The notes under the pieces are model-generated. The model was not told the DNA's origin and did no database searches. It saw only the letters and a program-made list of their open reading frames with translations. Positions 15,708 through 23,308 of a stretch of 34,476 bases of DNA are shown here, one piece after another (the first letter of the stretch is position 1; every line of letters starts with the position of its first letter). Position numbers and translations under genes: made by a program. Source of the DNA: an uncultured Ignavibacteria bacterium (lineage in GTDB: Bacteria; Bacteroidota; Ignavibacteria; Ch128b); the NCBI GenBank assembly GCA_937944105.1, contig CALDZP010000074.1:1-34476 (forward strand), written 5' to 3'.

Positions 15708-16697
15708 TTATTCTTTAATCTCAAATTTAGATTTATATCCATTTGTTTCACCATTCATCGAAACGACATAATCGAAACCGTCTCTGACTGCATATGCCCC
15801 AATTTCTCCTTTTTTATTTAATGCAATAAAAGCTGCTTGATAAGGTTCTTTAATTATATTTTTATTTTTCTCGATAAGTCTTTTCACTGCAAATTCACAA
15901 GCCTCTTGAGGTGACATACCCTCTCTCATTTTCTCAACAATTAGAAAGGAACCTAATGTTCGCATTATTGTTTCACCAACTCCAGTTGCACCTGCTGCAC
16001 CAACATCATTATCCACATATAAACCCGCACCAATTATAGGAGAATCACCAACTCTTCCATGAATTTTCCATCGTAATCCACTAGTTGTGCAGGCACCTGA
16101 AATATTTCCGTCTTTATCGATTGCAAGCATTGTGATGGTATCGTGAGACTCATTTCCAATCCAGTTATCTTCTTTACTTAGACTTTCTTTCCATTTAATC
16201 CAAGCTTGTCTTGATTTTTCTGTCAAAAGATTTTCTTCTTTAAATCCATAAGCCAGAGCAAATCGTTTTGCTCCTTCACCAGCGAGCATTACATGTTTAG
16301 TTTTTTCCATTACTAATCGAGCAACTGAAATTGGATTTTTAATATTTTGAAGGAAAGCTACTGCGCCAGCTCTCCCCTTCCAATCCATTATTGATGCATC
16401 AAGGGTTACAATTCCATTTTCATCTGGTAAACCGCCGTATCCTACTGAGTTATTTTCGGGGTCATCTTCTGCAACTCGAACCCCTTGTTCAACGGCATCC
16501 AGAGAGTTACCACCATTGGCTAAAATTTCCCAGGCTTTCAAATTAGGCTTTCTATCTCTATCCCAGGTTGAAATAACCACAGGACGGATAACGGAATTAT
16601 TTTTGGATGCAAAAATATTTGAAGGACTAATAAATTTAAGTCCTACACCTAAAAGAGTTGATGCATATACAAATTTTCTGCGCGATATTAAACTCAT
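15708..16697 (-). CDS. Tat-exported N4-(beta-N-acetylglucosaminyl)-L-asparaginase-family amidase
   Basis: This is an N-terminal-nucleophile hydrolase of the glycosylasparaginase/isoaspartyl peptidase superfamily. Residues 1-30 are a twin-arginine signal (SRRKFVYAS, then a hydrophobic stretch). The precursor is cut before the catalytic Thr187 in HDTITMLAIDKDG. The substrate-binding blocks RVGDSPIIGAGLYVDN and GATGVGETIMR follow in the beta subunit. The family releases aspartate from GlcNAc-Asn or from isoaspartyl peptides; the HDT context and GDSPIIGAG block favour the glycosylasparaginase branch. A GGAG ribosome-binding site precedes the ATG. It lies 12 bases downstream of cysS. Export suggests it scavenges glycopeptide or damaged peptide fragments in the periplasm. 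Confidence 0.88.
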   Translation of the reverse strand: MSLISRRKFVYASTLLGVGLKFISPSNIFASKNNSVIRPVVISTWDRDRKPNLKAWEILANGGNSLDAVEQGVRVAEDDPENNSVGYGGLPDENGIVTLDASIMDWKGRAGAVAFLQNIKNPISVARLVMEKTKHVMLAGEGAKRFALAYGFKEENLLTEKSRQAWIKWKESLSKEDNWIGNESHDTITMLAIDKDGNISGACTTSGLRWKIHGRVGDSPIIGAGLYVDNDVGAAGATGVGETIMRTLGSFLIVEKMREGMSPQEACEFAVKRLIEKNKNIIKEPYQAAFIALNKKGEIGAYAVRDGFDYVVSMNGETNGYKSKFEIKE

Positions 16698-18220: not shown

Positions 18221-18673
18221 TTAACTTCTCACTCTATGAGAAAGTTGAATTAAAACAATCCCAATTACAATCAACAAAATTCCAATTGCAATTCTCCAAT
18301 TTATTTCCTGTGTACCTTTAATTAATCCAAGCACTGTTCCCGCAATTGGTGACATAGCAAATGCAATTGCAAGAGTTACACCAAGATTTTCACTTTTCGC
18401 CAGCGCGGCATAAAAACTCCACATTCCAAGACTCCCAGCAATTATTCCTCCACCAATTATTATCATTAGCCATGCACCTATATTGGATGGATTTTTTATC
18501 GCGTTCCAAGACGAAATAGAAATCAAACCCAGTATTAACATTGCTACAAAAGTCCTTATTGTTATACCTGCTATTGGTGGAATACCTAATTCTTTAAGTC
18601 CCGCTTTCTCAAAATATCCTCCTATTCCCCAAAATGCACCAGCTAAAATTGCAAATAAAATATATTGTTTCAT
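18221..18673 (-). CDS. Half-size EamA/DMT-family transporter
   Basis: The 150-residue protein has about five transmembrane helices and the EamA signature at the start (AILAGAFWGIGGYFEKAGLKELG) and in the middle (GSLGMWSFYAALAKSENLGVTLAIAFAMSPIAGTVLG). Typical DMT transporters have ten helices from two such repeats; this gene encodes one repeat only and would act as a homodimer or heterodimer. The ORF ends cleanly in the basic residues RVRS, so it is probably a genuine single-domain member, not a truncation. It has its own candidate TTTG-N18-TATTTTTG promoter, with AAAGG close to the ATG. The substrate is unknown. Confidence 0.82.
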   Translation of the reverse strand: MKQYILFAILAGAFWGIGGYFEKAGLKELGIPPIAGITIRTFVAMLILGLISISSWNAIKNPSNIGAWLMIIIGGGIIAGSLGMWSFYAALAKSENLGVTLAIAFAMSPIAGTVLGLIKGTQEINWRIAIGILLIVIGIVLIQLSHRVRS

Positions 18674-18720: not shown

Positions 18721-18886
18721 CCATCAGAAATCAGGATAAAATTTGTTCTCTAAAATTTTTTTCTGCTAAAAAATAATTTTATGGTGCGAAAAATTATTTT
18801 TCATCTTCTTATTTACTGGAAGTTTGTCTAAATATTTACAAAAAATTGTTAAAAATCCACTTGCACCTATTTAATATTTTACTTAA

Positions 18887-18892
18887 TATAAT
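18887..18892 (+). promoter_or_regulatory. Candidate -10 hexamer (TATAAT) upstream of gcvT
   Basis: A perfect TATAAT lies about 145 bases before the gcvT ATG. No good -35 sits at 16-18 bases; TTGCAC is 20 bases upstream, which is too far. If used, transcription would begin near 18899 and the structured leader would be entirely within the 5' UTR. Confidence 0.3.
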
Positions 18893-18938
18893 CGTAGTAA
18901 CTTATTGAAAATCAAAAATTTAAAAATCCAAAATATTT

Positions 18939-19035
18939 GCTTGGAGCTGAAATCCTGGTGGTCAAGACGAAAGGAAGGAGAAAGGAAGGACTTTCAATTA
19001 CCTTTCTCCTTCGGCTCTAAGCAGAAAGGAATTTT
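18939..19035 (+). promoter_or_regulatory. Structured gcvT leader with alternative Shine-Dalgarno sequestration (candidate riboswitch)
   Basis: An outer nine-pair stem joins GCTTGGAGC (18939-18947) to GCTCTAAGC (19014-19022), with one G-U pair. Inside is a perfect 12-pair hairpin, GAAGGAGAAAGG (18974-18985) with CCTTTCTCCTTC (19001-19012), and an asymmetric 26-base 5' strand (18948-18973) opposite one base. GAAAG (18969-18973) can pair with CTTTC (18991-18995) in the hairpin loop as a pseudoknot. CCTTTCT (19001-19007) can alternatively pair with AGAAAGG (19023-19029), which is the gcvT Shine-Dalgarno sequence; the same AGAAAGGAA is present in the hairpin's 5' arm (18979-18987). Opening the hairpin would therefore hide the ribosome-binding site. 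It does not show the conserved glycine-riboswitch core that I know. Ligand and class are unknown. Confidence 0.6.
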
Positions 19036-20121
19036 ATGAAATATACAAAGCTTAATAAAATTCACAAACAACTAAATGCAAAACTTGTTGAATTCGCAGG
19101 CTTTGAAATGCCAGTTTACTATACCTCCATTGTGGAAGAACATCAAGCAGTCAGGAAAAATGTTGGTATGTTCGATGTATCTCATATGGGCGAGATATTT
19201 ATTTATGGTCCCGATGCCCTTAAGTTTGTCCAAAAAATTACAATTAATGATGCATCGAAATTAATACCCGGAAAAGCACAATATTCTGCCATGTGTTATG
19301 AAAACGGTGGAATTGTCGATGATTTGTTAGTCTATAAACTTGAAAATGGTTTTATGCTGGTGGTTAATGCATCAAATAAAGATAAAGATTTCGAGTGGAT
19401 GAAAAAAAATATTACCGATGAAAATGTACAAATTCTTGATCGTAGTGATGATTACACATTGATAGCCGTACAAGGACCAAAATCTGCAGAAACTCTAAAA
19501 TCGCTTGTAAACTTTGATATCTATGAATTAAATTATTATACATTTAAATACGGAAAAATTCTGAATACAGATGCTATCATCTCACGAACCGGTTATACTG
19601 GAGAACTTGGTTTCGAAATTTATTTCGAAAGTAATGAAGAACAGGCAATAAAAATCTGGAATTCAATTTTGGAAAGTGGAAATCAATATAATATTAAATG
19701 CTGTGGATTAGGAGCAAGAGACAGTCTCAGACTTGAAATGGGATATTGCCTTTATGGGAATGATATTGATGAAAACACTAATCCATTAGAAGCAGGACTT
19801 GGATGGATAACAAAACTTGATAAAGATTATTTTATTGGTAAGGAAGCTTTATTGAAAATAAAACAGGAAGGTTTAAAGAGACAATTAAAAGGTTTTGAAT
19901 TAATTGATAAAGGAATTCCGCGACATGGGAATCAAATCTTTTTTGAAAATAAAAATATTGGTTTTGTCACAAGTGGCACTCAATCACCTTCACTTAATAA
20001 ACCGATTGGTTTAGGTTATTTCGAAATAGATTCAGTCGATGAAACTTCAATATTTGAGATCGACAACAGAGGTAAAAGACTTAAAGCAAGATTGACAAAA
20101 ATTCCATTTATTCAAAAATGA
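19036..20121 (+). CDS. gcvT: Glycine cleavage system T protein (aminomethyltransferase)
   Basis: GcvT transfers the methylene group from the aminomethyl-lipoyl H protein to tetrahydrofolate, releasing ammonia. The 361 residues are the standard length. Recognisable blocks are GMFDVSHMGEIFIYGPDAL near the N-terminus, QYSAMCYENGGIVDDLLVYKL and LVVNASNKDKDFEWM around the folate site, SRTGYTGELGFEIYF, and CGLGARDSLRLEMGYCLYGNDID. No gcvH or gcvP is adjacent. The ATG follows AGAAAGGA at seven bases and is preceded by a structured leader that could control translation. The TGA overlaps the comB start as ATGA. Confidence 0.97.
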   Translation: MKYTKLNKIHKQLNAKLVEFAGFEMPVYYTSIVEEHQAVRKNVGMFDVSHMGEIFIYGPDALKFVQKITINDASKLIPGKAQYSAMCYENGGIVDDLLVYKLENGFMLVVNASNKDKDFEWMKKNITDENVQILDRSDDYTLIAVQGPKSAETLKSLVNFDIYELNYYTFKYGKILNTDAIISRTGYTGELGFEIYFESNEEQAIKIWNSILESGNQYNIKCCGLGARDSLRLEMGYCLYGNDIDENTNPLEAGLGWITKLDKDYFIGKEALLKIKQEGLKRQLKGFELIDKGIPRHGNQIFFENKNIGFVTSGTQSPSLNKPIGLGYFEIDSVDETSIFEIDNRGKRLKARLTKIPFIQK

Positions 20122-20840
20122 AAATAGAAGTAATTTTTTTCGTTCATAATCAATTAGAAGATTATTTTTACAATCGAAACGTTGTAGTAATAGATGTTTT
20201 AAGAGCAACATCAACAATTATCACAGCTCTTGCAAACGGCGCAAAAACAATTATTCCTGCATCATCAGTTGAAGAAGCAGTAAAAATTGCTAAAAATCTT
20301 GAGCGTTCTACATATTTGTTATGCGGTGAAAGACACACAAAAATTATTGACGGTTTTGATTTAGGTAACTCACCTCTCGAATTTTCACCAGAAAAAGTCG
20401 AAGGTAAAAAAATTATACTCACATCAACAAATGGTACCAAAGTATTCGAGTATTTAAGAAAGTCTAAGAATGTATTAATCGCTTCAACACTAAACGTTTC
20501 TGCCGTTTCGAATAAAATGATGGAAATTGATTCTGATTGGTCCATTATCTGTTCCGGTCGAGATGGTTTTTTTGATTCATCTGATGCTATTTTATCAGGA
20601 CTAATAATTAAGAATTTAAACAGAGAGGTTAATGTTGTAGAACTAAATGATGCCGGTAAAACCTCATTGCTATTGTACGAAAAATACGAAGGCAATATTC
20701 TAAAGTACTTGAAAGATACAGATCACGGAAAGATTTTAATTGCTAATGGATTTGAAAAAGATCTGGATTTTATTGCGCAAGTCGATAAGTTTCCAATCGT
20801 CGCAAGTTTTACCAATAATTACATAGGAATATTGAAATGA
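20118..20840 (+). CDS. comB: ComB family 2-phosphosulfolactate phosphatase-like protein
   Basis: The 240-residue protein carries the ComB signatures VVVIDVLRATSTIITALANGA (about 22-42), LLCGERHTKIIDGFDLGNSP (about 73-92) and GKKIILTSTNGTKVFEY. In methanogens ComB hydrolyses 2-phosphosulfolactate to sulfolactate in coenzyme M synthesis and depends on magnesium. Many bacteria that do not make coenzyme M keep a homologue, so the physiological substrate here is uncertain. It is sandwiched by four-base overlaps between gcvT and ftsK, indicating translational coupling. No comA, comC or sulfolactate-related gene is visible in the window. Confidence 0.85.
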   Translation: MKIEVIFFVHNQLEDYFYNRNVVVIDVLRATSTIITALANGAKTIIPASSVEEAVKIAKNLERSTYLLCGERHTKIIDGFDLGNSPLEFSPEKVEGKKIILTSTNGTKVFEYLRKSKNVLIASTLNVSAVSNKMMEIDSDWSIICSGRDGFFDSSDAILSGLIIKNLNREVNVVELNDAGKTSLLLYEKYEGNILKYLKDTDHGKILIANGFEKDLDFIAQVDKFPIVASFTNNYIGILK

Positions 20841-23308
20841 AAAGGCGAAAGAAAATAGTTGATTCAACTCTTGATTCAAATGAGTTTTTAATTCCTTATG
20901 AAACTAAAAAATCAATTCTGGCATTGTTTTTACTTACTTTTGGTGTAATTATTGCCTTAAGTATAATCTCCTACAAGAGGAGTGATTACACTTATATTCA
21001 AAATCTTGAACTAAAAGATTTCCTGTCACTTATAGATAAAAATTCTGATCTCTCACAAAGCGCATCAAAAATTAAAAATTGGTTCGGATTAATTGGCGCA
21101 ATACTTGCTAACTTTTTTATAAACGATTTATTTGGTTATTTTTCTTTTTCATTTGTAATAGTTCTTGTTTATTGGGGATTCTTAATTTTATTTGGTGTCA
21201 ATAATCCTAGACAATCAATTTTATATTCGATTCTAATTATTTCAATTGGTATCCTATTCTCATCAATGATCGGAATTTTATCTAATACCCTTGATTCAAT
21301 TGCTCAAAATAAAGAACTGTTTGGTTCGGTTGGATTTTTCTTGGGTTCGGTGCTGATAAAATTAATTGGCTCAGCTGGAGGATTAATTGTAATATTTGTT
21401 ATGATACTAATTTTCTCAACAATTCTTTTAAACATTAATCTCAAAGATTTGCTTACAAATTTTTTCTTAAATACAAAACTAACTTTTTCAGCTATTGGAA
21501 ATTGGTTCACTAACTTATTTAGAAAAGGAAAAGCCAATCAGAAATCGACAATAACCTTTAGAGAAAAGAACTTAGTTAAAGAGAATAAGCATGAAAAAAA
21601 TCTTGATGATCAATTATCGATACAGAGAGAAGCGAAAATAGAAATCATTAAAGACGAGATAATTAAATCAGAAGATCAGATAAAAAGTATAGAAAAGCCT
21701 ATAACACAAAGTATTGCAATAAAGAAAGCAAAGAGTGATATAAGCGATTCCTCAGATTTAAATAAAAAAGAAATTGAGCAACCAACCTCTGGTGGATTAC
21801 AACCCTGGGATAGTTCACTTAATTTTAATTTACCATCAGTTGATTTACTTGAGATACCAATTCAAATTCAGAATGTTAATCAATCCGAATTAACACAAAA
21901 AGCTGAAATGATTGAGAGGAAATTAAATTTATTTAAAGTTGAAATCCAGGAAATTAAAGTGACACCAGGACCGGTTGTAACTCTTTACGAAGTAATTCCT
22001 TCACCAAATGTAAAAGTTAATACAATTACGAGTTTGAAAGATGATCTTGCATTAGCACTTAAGGCAAAAGGCATTCGTTTAATTGCACCAATGCCAGGAA
22101 GAGGAACAATTGGAGTAGAAATTCCTAATGATAGTCCAGAAATTGTTAGAGTTGCCAGTGTTTATGGTTCACCTAAATTTATTCAATCAACTCATCAATT
22201 ACCTTTAGCTATGGGAAAAACAGCGGCAGGCGAAATTTTTATTGAAGATCTAACATCTATGCCTCATTTATTAATTGCTGGTGCAACTGGTTCAGGCAAA
22301 AGTGTAGGAATCAATACAATAATAAATTCAATTTTATTCAAATTACATCCTGCAAAGGTCAAATTTGTTTTAATCGATCCCAAACGAATCGAACTTGCAA
22401 TGTATAAACGATTAAAAAAACACTATCTTGCTATTTGCCCAGATGTTAACGAAGAAATTATAACAAGTCCTGATAACGCAGTTACTGTTTTAAAATCACT
22501 GGAAGCAGAAATGGAAAAAAGATACGATTGGTTAAGTAAATTAGATGTGAGAAATATTCGTGAATTTAACGATAAACTTGCCTCTGGTAAAATTAAAGAA
22601 AAAGATGTAGCAATGTTTCACCCTTTGCCGTATATAATTGTTATTGTTGATGAATTTGCAGATTTGATGATTACAGCCGGAAAACAAATCGAAGATTCAA
22701 TAGCACGGCTTGCACAAATGTCCAGAGCTGCAGGAATTCATTTAATTTTTGCGACGCAGCGACCATCAGTAAATGTTATTCGAGGAAATATTAAAGCTAA
22801 TTTCCCCGCTCGAATTGCTTACAAAGTTTCTCAAAGAACAGATTCAATCACAATTCTCGATCAAACAGGTGCCGAGCAATTACTTGGAAATGGTGATATG
22901 ATCTTCAGCAATAATGACAATATGATTAGAGTTCAGAATGCATACATCTCGGAGCAAGAAATAAATAAAGTCCTTGATTTTATTGAAAATCAAGAAGGTT
23001 TTGCATTTCCTTATTTATTACCATCAGTAAAGGCTAATGAAAGAGGAAATTCATCAGCAATTAATGAAGGTGACTTTGATGAACTAACTGTAAATGCTGC
23101 GTATCTTGTAGTAAGACAAAGAATTGCATCTGTTACATTTCTTCAAAGAAAATTAAAAATTGGATATGCTCGAGCAGCAAGAATTATGGATGAATTAGAA
23201 CAAATGGGGATAGTAGGTCCTATCGATGGTGGTAAGAATCGACTTGTTCTTGTGGAGTCAGAAGATCAACTCGAAGATATCTTAAAGGCTTATGGTGCAA
23301 ATTTTTAA
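20837..23308 (+). CDS. ftsK: DNA translocase FtsK/SpoIIIE
   Basis: FtsK moves chromosome ends through the closing septum and activates dimer resolution. The 823-residue protein has four predicted membrane segments (about 26-46, 84-120, 127-150 and 163-200), a charged linker (about 230-320), and the alpha/beta motor with Walker A GATGSGKS (482-489) and Walker B IVIVDEFADL (D605). FATQRPSVNVIRGNIKANFPARIAYKVSQ follows, as is standard. The C-terminal winged-helix gamma domain (about 755-823: VVRQRIASVTFLQRKLKIGYARAARIMDELEQMGIVG) reads polar DNA motifs. Its start overlaps the comB stop by four bases. The linker is short compared with E. coli FtsK but normal for Bacteroidota-like proteins. Confidence 0.96.
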   Translation: MKRRKKIVDSTLDSNEFLIPYETKKSILALFLLTFGVIIALSIISYKRSDYTYIQNLELKDFLSLIDKNSDLSQSASKIKNWFGLIGAILANFFINDLFGYFSFSFVIVLVYWGFLILFGVNNPRQSILYSILIISIGILFSSMIGILSNTLDSIAQNKELFGSVGFFLGSVLIKLIGSAGGLIVIFVMILIFSTILLNINLKDLLTNFFLNTKLTFSAIGNWFTNLFRKGKANQKSTITFREKNLVKENKHEKNLDDQLSIQREAKIEIIKDEIIKSEDQIKSIEKPITQSIAIKKAKSDISDSSDLNKKEIEQPTSGGLQPWDSSLNFNLPSVDLLEIPIQIQNVNQSELTQKAEMIERKLNLFKVEIQEIKVTPGPVVTLYEVIPSPNVKVNTITSLKDDLALALKAKGIRLIAPMPGRGTIGVEIPNDSPEIVRVASVYGSPKFIQSTHQLPLAMGKTAAGEIFIEDLTSMPHLLIAGATGSGKSVGINTIINSILFKLHPAKVKFVLIDPKRIELAMYKRLKKHYLAICPDVNEEIITSPDNAVTVLKSLEAEMEKRYDWLSKLDVRNIREFNDKLASGKIKEKDVAMFHPLPYIIVIVDEFADLMITAGKQIEDSIARLAQMSRAAGIHLIFATQRPSVNVIRGNIKANFPARIAYKVSQRTDSITILDQTGAEQLLGNGDMIFSNNDNMIRVQNAYISEQEINKVLDFIENQEGFAFPYLLPSVKANERGNSSAINEGDFDELTVNAAYLVVRQRIASVTFLQRKLKIGYARAARIMDELEQMGIVGPIDGGKNRLVLVESEDQLEDILKAYGANF

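Follow-up and report, generated by a model that had tools for sequence, protein, structure and literature searches.

The gene ftsZ is among the most central of bacterial genes; to our knowledge, pairing with its mRNA has been described for only a few RNAs, the enterobacterial small RNAs DicF, DinR and StfZ. We know of almost nothing reported on regulatory RNA in the bacteria studied here. DicF of Escherichia coli represses ftsZ translation by pairing at its start region (PMC5069750), and DinR of Klebsiella pneumoniae represses ftsZ by pairing near the start (PMC10907235). SreA of Listeria, a trans-acting S-adenosylmethionine (SAM) riboswitch, is a precedent for a metabolic leader acting in trans (reviewed in PMC8079631), and gcvT of Neisseria gonorrhoeae is preceded by a tandem glycine riboswitch (PMC13104608). 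Here we describe the 97-nucleotide (nt) leader (positions 18939-19035) of the gcvT-comB-ftsK operon in a contig of an uncultured Ignavibacteria bacterium (CALDZP010000074.1; 34,476 nt, referred to as the window). The leader exposes in a hairpin loop a segment complementary to the beginning of ftsZ in the same genome. We favour, with a probability of roughly 0.55, the reading that this structured leader acts as an antisense RNA, pairing in trans with the ftsZ start region and probably lowering FtsZ synthesis.

The leader has a fold energy of -39.8 kcal/mol within a 131-nt stretch, compared with -24.8 +/- 3.2 kcal/mol for its dinucleotide shuffles (z-score -4.67; none of 200 was as good). Minimum-energy folds organize it as a three-way junction of an outer stem (P1), a small hairpin (P2) and a long hairpin (P3). 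P1 (GCTTGGAGCT/GGCTCTAAGC) has 10 pairs including two G-U, rather than the nine counted in the initial annotation of this region, and is further extended in the minimum-energy fold. P3 (GAAGGAGAAAGG/CCTTTCTCCTTC) is the perfect 12-pair hairpin already recognized there. A 26-base 5' strand that had been taken as unpaired is mostly occupied by P2, which is present in most of the five leaders known (see below) and carries the 11-mer TGGTCAAGACG in a hairpin with a 7-nt loop, GGTCAAG. In the predicted folds of all five, most of the Shine-Dalgarno region is free of pairing.

Six genomes of the family were compared: the genome under study (G000) and G002 from one genus (g1), G003 and G005 from a second (g2), G004 from a third (g3), and G001. 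P2 has four solid pairs in g2 but is weak in both g1 and g3. GcvT is present in 60 of the 61 genomes of our set of relatives, and the leader is found directly upstream of gcvT, in one copy per genome, in all five family genomes with an assembled gcvT (G000, G002, G003, G004, G005). When 391 class genomes were searched by pattern, only the same five were returned. The covariance model of the leader scored these at E 7e-25 to 5e-14 and gave only chance-level matches beyond them in the 391 class and 396 phylum genomes; the weak matches in other genomes (E 0.005-0.05) are devoid of GGTCAAG and were discarded as chance. The leader is absent from the gcvT upstream regions read in other families, where gcvT is mostly preceded by an apparent transaldolase-type gene, and from about 20 upstream regions of the closest GcvT relatives (61% identity at most) in a wider search. 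Searches of phage, virus and GTDB contigs yielded no relatives of the leader, the one set of matches obtained being judged chance on inspection.

In the model-fitted alignment of the five leaders 92.5% of the cells pair, and seven pairs are changed on both sides, compared with 2.7 expected from shuffles and 0-2 when slid. Such changes affect both P1 and P3, so that the conservation of the two stems in close relatives, on which the initial annotation had made its reading depend, is observed in all five leaders. P3 pairing is kept in G004 by a matched one-base deletion in each arm. This covariation is moderate support for the structure, given that there are five sequences and that part of the P1 count comes from a shifted register in G005. 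The 11-mer TGGTCAAGACG is unchanged in the five leaders while its flanks vary. A structured and conserved cis leader of gcvT is supported by these data.

We asked where else the invariant 11-mer occurs by exact search of the six family genomes. It was found at 16 places, against five for the same letters read backwards. Besides the gcvT leaders a single orthologous place recurs: the reverse complement, CGTCTTGACCA, lies at nt +13 to +23 (codons 5-8) of ftsZ in 5/5 leader-bearing genomes. The identity of ftsZ was confirmed by Pfam and its start position is fixed by a strong GGAGG Shine-Dalgarno sequence. Contiguous pairing between the leader and the ftsZ of the same genome reaches 13, 14, 14, 13 and 13 base pairs (bp) over ftsZ nt about +10 to +25, with hybrid energies of -20.8 to -23.7 kcal/mol and a net gain, after opening of both RNAs, of -12.1 to -18.5 kcal/mol. 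Pairing of the P3 3' arm with the ftsZ Shine-Dalgarno sequence, which appears in free duplex predictions, needs P3 to be opened and was not counted. The 11-mer is also present in sense orientation in the region coding for a ClpC-like C-terminus (SGQDELTF), only in g1, which is probably a coding coincidence.

Identical stretches of 11-14 bp in the two loci would be equally expected if a protein recognized ATCGTCTTGACCA at the DNA level in ftsZ and, in opposite orientation, in the gcvT leader to coordinate division loci, of which ftsK and ftsZ are natural co-targets. Among non-coding copies of the 11-mer, however, only that of the leader recurs in the family genomes, and no further orthologous ones were found. 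The sequence also falls exactly in the hairpin loop of a covarying RNA fold, and its strict invariance is unusual for an operator. We consider a site of this type quite unlikely.

The conservation of the ftsZ site is exceptional within its gene. In the codon alignment of the five ftsZ sequences only three of 1373 windows of 11 nt are fully conserved; they overlap and all lie at the pairing site (control codon alignments: 1/1073 for gcvT, 0/713 for comB). The site belongs to an otherwise variable N-terminal extension and keeps minority codons (CGT, 17%; GAC, 22%), in an alignment where the codon is kept at only 17 of 137 invariant residues. By a rough estimate, such a coincidence has a chance of 2e-4 to 3e-3 if all coding DNA is considered, and of about 1e-5 to 1e-4 if only a start region is. 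When start regions sampled by genome stretches were ranked as targets of the P2 segment, ftsZ was the best by a wide margin in G000 (z -5.5; 225 regions) and in G002 (z -6.9; 349 regions). When TCTTGACC was sought shortly behind gene starts, ftsZ was recovered in 6/6 genomes, and no other recognisable gene recurred at an orthologous-looking start in these genomes. The ftsZ start regions read from other families are devoid of the pairing site, and leader and site appear to share the same phylogenetic range. Among the families read, only the FtsZ of this one carries the N-terminal extension MxxxRLDHxxxxRxY...

The invariant stretch of the leader could alternatively represent the first codons of a short upstream frame, RTG GTC AAG ACG (M-V-K-T), whose translation would control gcvT. 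A GTG (four genomes) or ATG (G004) directly precedes GTC AAG ACG in all five leaders and, in G002 and G004, the frame ends at a TGA overlapping the gcvT ATG. Nevertheless, peptides and stops differ between genomes (11 to 26 residues) and the frame lacks a good Shine-Dalgarno sequence. Coding by itself does not require the invariance seen at all three synonymous sites, and the match to ftsZ would be left without explanation, making this reading highly improbable.

The predicted pairing between leader and ftsZ is well supported by comparison, and we propose the following mechanism for the antisense leader. The rigid three-way junction would present the P2 loop GGUCAAG, which would nucleate on CUUGACC in codons 6-8 of the ftsZ mRNA. 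P2 would then open and the duplex would zip to its 13-14 contiguous bp (+10 to +25), just downstream of the ftsZ start codon and at the edge of the footprint of the initiating ribosome. Initiation or early elongation of ftsZ translation would be reduced, leading to less FtsZ while the gcvT-comB-ftsK operon is transcribed. The acting RNA could be the whole mRNA or a processed leader fragment, operating without Hfq, as a duplex of 13-14 bp nucleated by a hairpin loop should not need this protein. We infer that leader and ftsZ mRNA encounter each other in the cell, that their pairing is repressive, that a leader fragment may be released and that a signal controls the process. A link to ftsZ is functionally coherent because the leader heads an operon that includes the divisome gene ftsK.

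The same complementarity could work in the reverse direction, the ftsZ mRNA, which is usually abundant, pairing with the P2 loop and altering the stability or translation of the gcvT-comB-ftsK mRNA. In predicted folds, however, the opening of P2 does not alter P1, P3 or the Shine-Dalgarno sequence, so that no direct route to gcvT is seen, and regulation by the ftsZ mRNA is very unlikely.

Several observations weigh against an antisense role of the leader. Both partners are found in only five genomes, from three genera of one family, which represents few independent events, and the complement was noticed after the fact, though from a single question. Partners swapped between genomes still pair over 11-14 bp; outside the 11 bp common to all, lineage-specific co-evolution is not clearly visible, and part of the conservation of codons 5-8 (RLDH) may be at the protein level. 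The pairing at +10 to +25 is downstream of the Shine-Dalgarno sequence, which makes repression plausible but falls short of certainty. Neither a terminator nor a processing site able to free a short RNA was seen. Hfq was not detected in the six family genomes, under conditions where Hfq-bearing control genomes gave matches. Finally, ftsZ of G001 matches 10 of the 11 letters, reading AGTCTTGACCA, and the gcvT-comB locus is absent from the assembly of this genome. A G001 leader with TGGTCAAGACT would be direct co-variation with its ftsZ, while an unchanged TGGTCAAGACG would weaken the case for pairing.

The initial annotation had interpreted the leader as a translational switch in which the P3 3' arm pairs either within the hairpin or with the gcvT Shine-Dalgarno sequence. 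The motifs that it invoked are all in place (GAAAG, 18969-18973; CTTTC, 18991-18995; CCTTTCT, 19001-19007; AGAAAGG, 19023-19029) and the last two are indeed complementary. Pairing CCTTTCT with AGAAAGG lies, however, 18.2 kcal/mol above the native fold because it encloses the 3' strand of P1 and destroys both P1 and P3. As transcription completes the 3' strands of P1 and P3 before it reaches the Shine-Dalgarno sequence, there would be no kinetic window for such a switch either. Its 7-nt register is not kept in g2, and complementarity of this kind is expected of any C/U-rich helix arm facing any Shine-Dalgarno sequence. The two-state switch was thus rejected. The two copies of AGAAAGGAA that had been described as decoy and ribosome-binding site do exist, beginning at 18979 and 19023 (a third, unrelated copy begins at 15943), but the decoy role of the first is unsupported. 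A proposed loop pseudoknot between GAAAG and CTTTC can be drawn in the window but is not conserved in G004 or g2.

No alternative fold hiding the Shine-Dalgarno sequence or forming a terminator was found in the leader, and its sequence has no U-run after P1 or P3. The failure to see a glycine or tetrahydrofolate (THF) riboswitch core in the first inspection was borne out, as Rfam gave no match in the whole window at the gathering threshold and nothing credible between 18850 and 19100 at E <= 10, including no glycine- or THF-riboswitch family; no Rfam family corresponds to the leader. A T-box-like reading (tRNA-acceptor, UGGU) was dropped, since stem I is missing and Rfam returned no T-box. Nothing here shows or requires a ligand-binding aptamer: in the genomes that carry the leader, its invariant loop is exactly antisense to the ftsZ start region.

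These results bear on the possibility that the leader acts exclusively in cis, as a lineage-specific riboswitch or protein-binding element of gcvT-comB-ftsK whose junction and P2 loop bind the ligand or protein, the match to ftsZ being coincidental. Such an element would account for the conservation of the three-way junction, for its paired changes and for the invariance of a loop placed just before the Shine-Dalgarno sequence. It would also occupy a classic position for gcvT control, a glycine riboswitch governing gcvT translation elsewhere (PMC13104608). It is disfavoured by the lack of a matching Rfam family, by a Shine-Dalgarno sequence that is mostly free in predicted folds and by the 18 kcal/mol cost of the proposed switch. 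It also leaves unexplained why the only perfectly conserved ftsZ nucleotides are the antisense of the loop, and we regard it as unlikely. A dual leader, sensing a one-carbon/glycine-related signal in cis and controlling ftsZ in trans via the invariant loop without Hfq, is a shade more doubtful still; if true, metabolism, chromosome translocation (FtsK) and septum formation (FtsZ) would be tied by one RNA.

The features of the locus are listed in Table 1. A sigma-70-like promoter (TTGCRN, 17 bp, TAATAT) would put the transcription start near 18896 and consequently the whole leader within the transcript. A second conserved box (GTAAC..AYTGAAAnnCAA..TTA) is located near this predicted start (18896-18920 in the window; also at loci L004 and L005), and in g2 it is a hairpin with a stem changed on both sides, from CCCA/TGGG to CCTA/TAGG. 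The gene order gcvT-comB-ftsK (19036-23308) is kept in 5/5 leader-bearing genomes and is common in the class. A gcvT with its own putative promoter and leader is found only in this family, while elsewhere in the class gcvT follows other genes. In g1 the divergent gene upstream of gcvT (18221-18673, minus strand) codes an EamA-family transporter of only 150 amino acids, about one EamA repeat; a different gene is found upstream of gcvT in the other genera.

Table 1. Features of the gcvT-comB-ftsK locus and of its leader (window coordinates).
Feature	Position	Strand	Evidence
-35-like TTGCAC of putative leader promoter	18861-18866	+	TTGCRN kept in five relatives; 17-bp spacer to TAATAT
-10-like TAATAT of putative leader promoter	18884-18889	+	invariant in five genomes; predicted transcription start about 18896
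AYTGAAAnnCAA box near predicted 5' end	18904-18916	+	alignment and folds; conserved; hairpin with changed pairs in g2
P1 5' strand of three-way junction	18939-18948	+	folds, pair counts
Predicted ftsZ-complementary segment GTGGTCAAGACGA	18958-18970	+	13 contiguous pairs with ftsZ nt +12 to +24 of the same genome
Invariant 11-mer TGGTCAAGACG, P2	18959-18969	+	identical in 5/5 leaders
P3 5' arm	18974-18985	+	perfect 12-bp hairpin; compensating indel and changes in relatives
P3 3' arm, includes CCTTTCT	19001-19012	+	folds
P1 3' strand, adjoins Shine-Dalgarno	19013-19022	+	folds
gcvT Shine-Dalgarno AGAAAGGA	19023-19030	+	mostly unpaired in predicted folds
gcvT (aminomethyltransferase), operon gene 1	19036-20121	+	Pfam GCV_T 2.6e-98
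comB-like 2-phosphosulfolactate phosphatase	20118-20840	+	Pfam PF04029; 4-nt overlap with gcvT; after gcvT in 5/5 relatives
ftsK (divisome DNA translocase)	20837-23308	+	Pfam FtsK_SpoIIIE/alpha/gamma/4TM; 4-nt overlap with comB; after comB in 5/5 relatives

The operon joins glycine/one-carbon metabolism to ftsK in bacteria without detectable Hfq, and an mRNA leader with a conserved sequence antisense to the ftsZ start would reach this gene by another route than the known small RNAs do. A literature search, of incomplete coverage, returned no report linking a gcvT leader to ftsZ. The prediction is sharp, with one loop, one target site and the compensatory mutations that they define.

Like DicF, the leader would pair as an antisense at the ftsZ translation start region, the complementarity amounting to 13-14 contiguous bp in each of the five genomes, and the expected outcome is less FtsZ. 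DicF itself, a prophage small RNA of 53 nt, uses Hfq and pairs around the ribosome-binding site, whereas the pairing segment here is a hairpin loop in an mRNA leader directed to ftsZ codons 4-9; homology to DicF was not found in Rfam, nor Hfq in the six genomes. The likeness to DinR lies in an mRNA-derived RNA and in predicted base pairing near the ftsZ start, the difference being that the present RNA is the 5' leader of a metabolic/ftsK operon. With the N. gonorrhoeae riboswitch it shares a structured leader directly upstream of gcvT, near the ribosome-binding site, but it has no glycine-riboswitch match, its fold is different and the Shine-Dalgarno sequence is not sequestered. SreA, too, heads a metabolic operon as its 5' leader, and it pairs in trans with a second mRNA, as is proposed here for the gcvT leader. 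It belongs, though, to the known SAM riboswitches and is set free by termination as a 229-nt RNA, whereas the gcvT leader has no known aptamer and no terminator, and its target would be ftsZ. Pairing with a second mRNA is strongly suggested by the comparison of the five genomes, and the gcvT leader is in this sense a candidate for a trans-acting mRNA leader of the SreA type.
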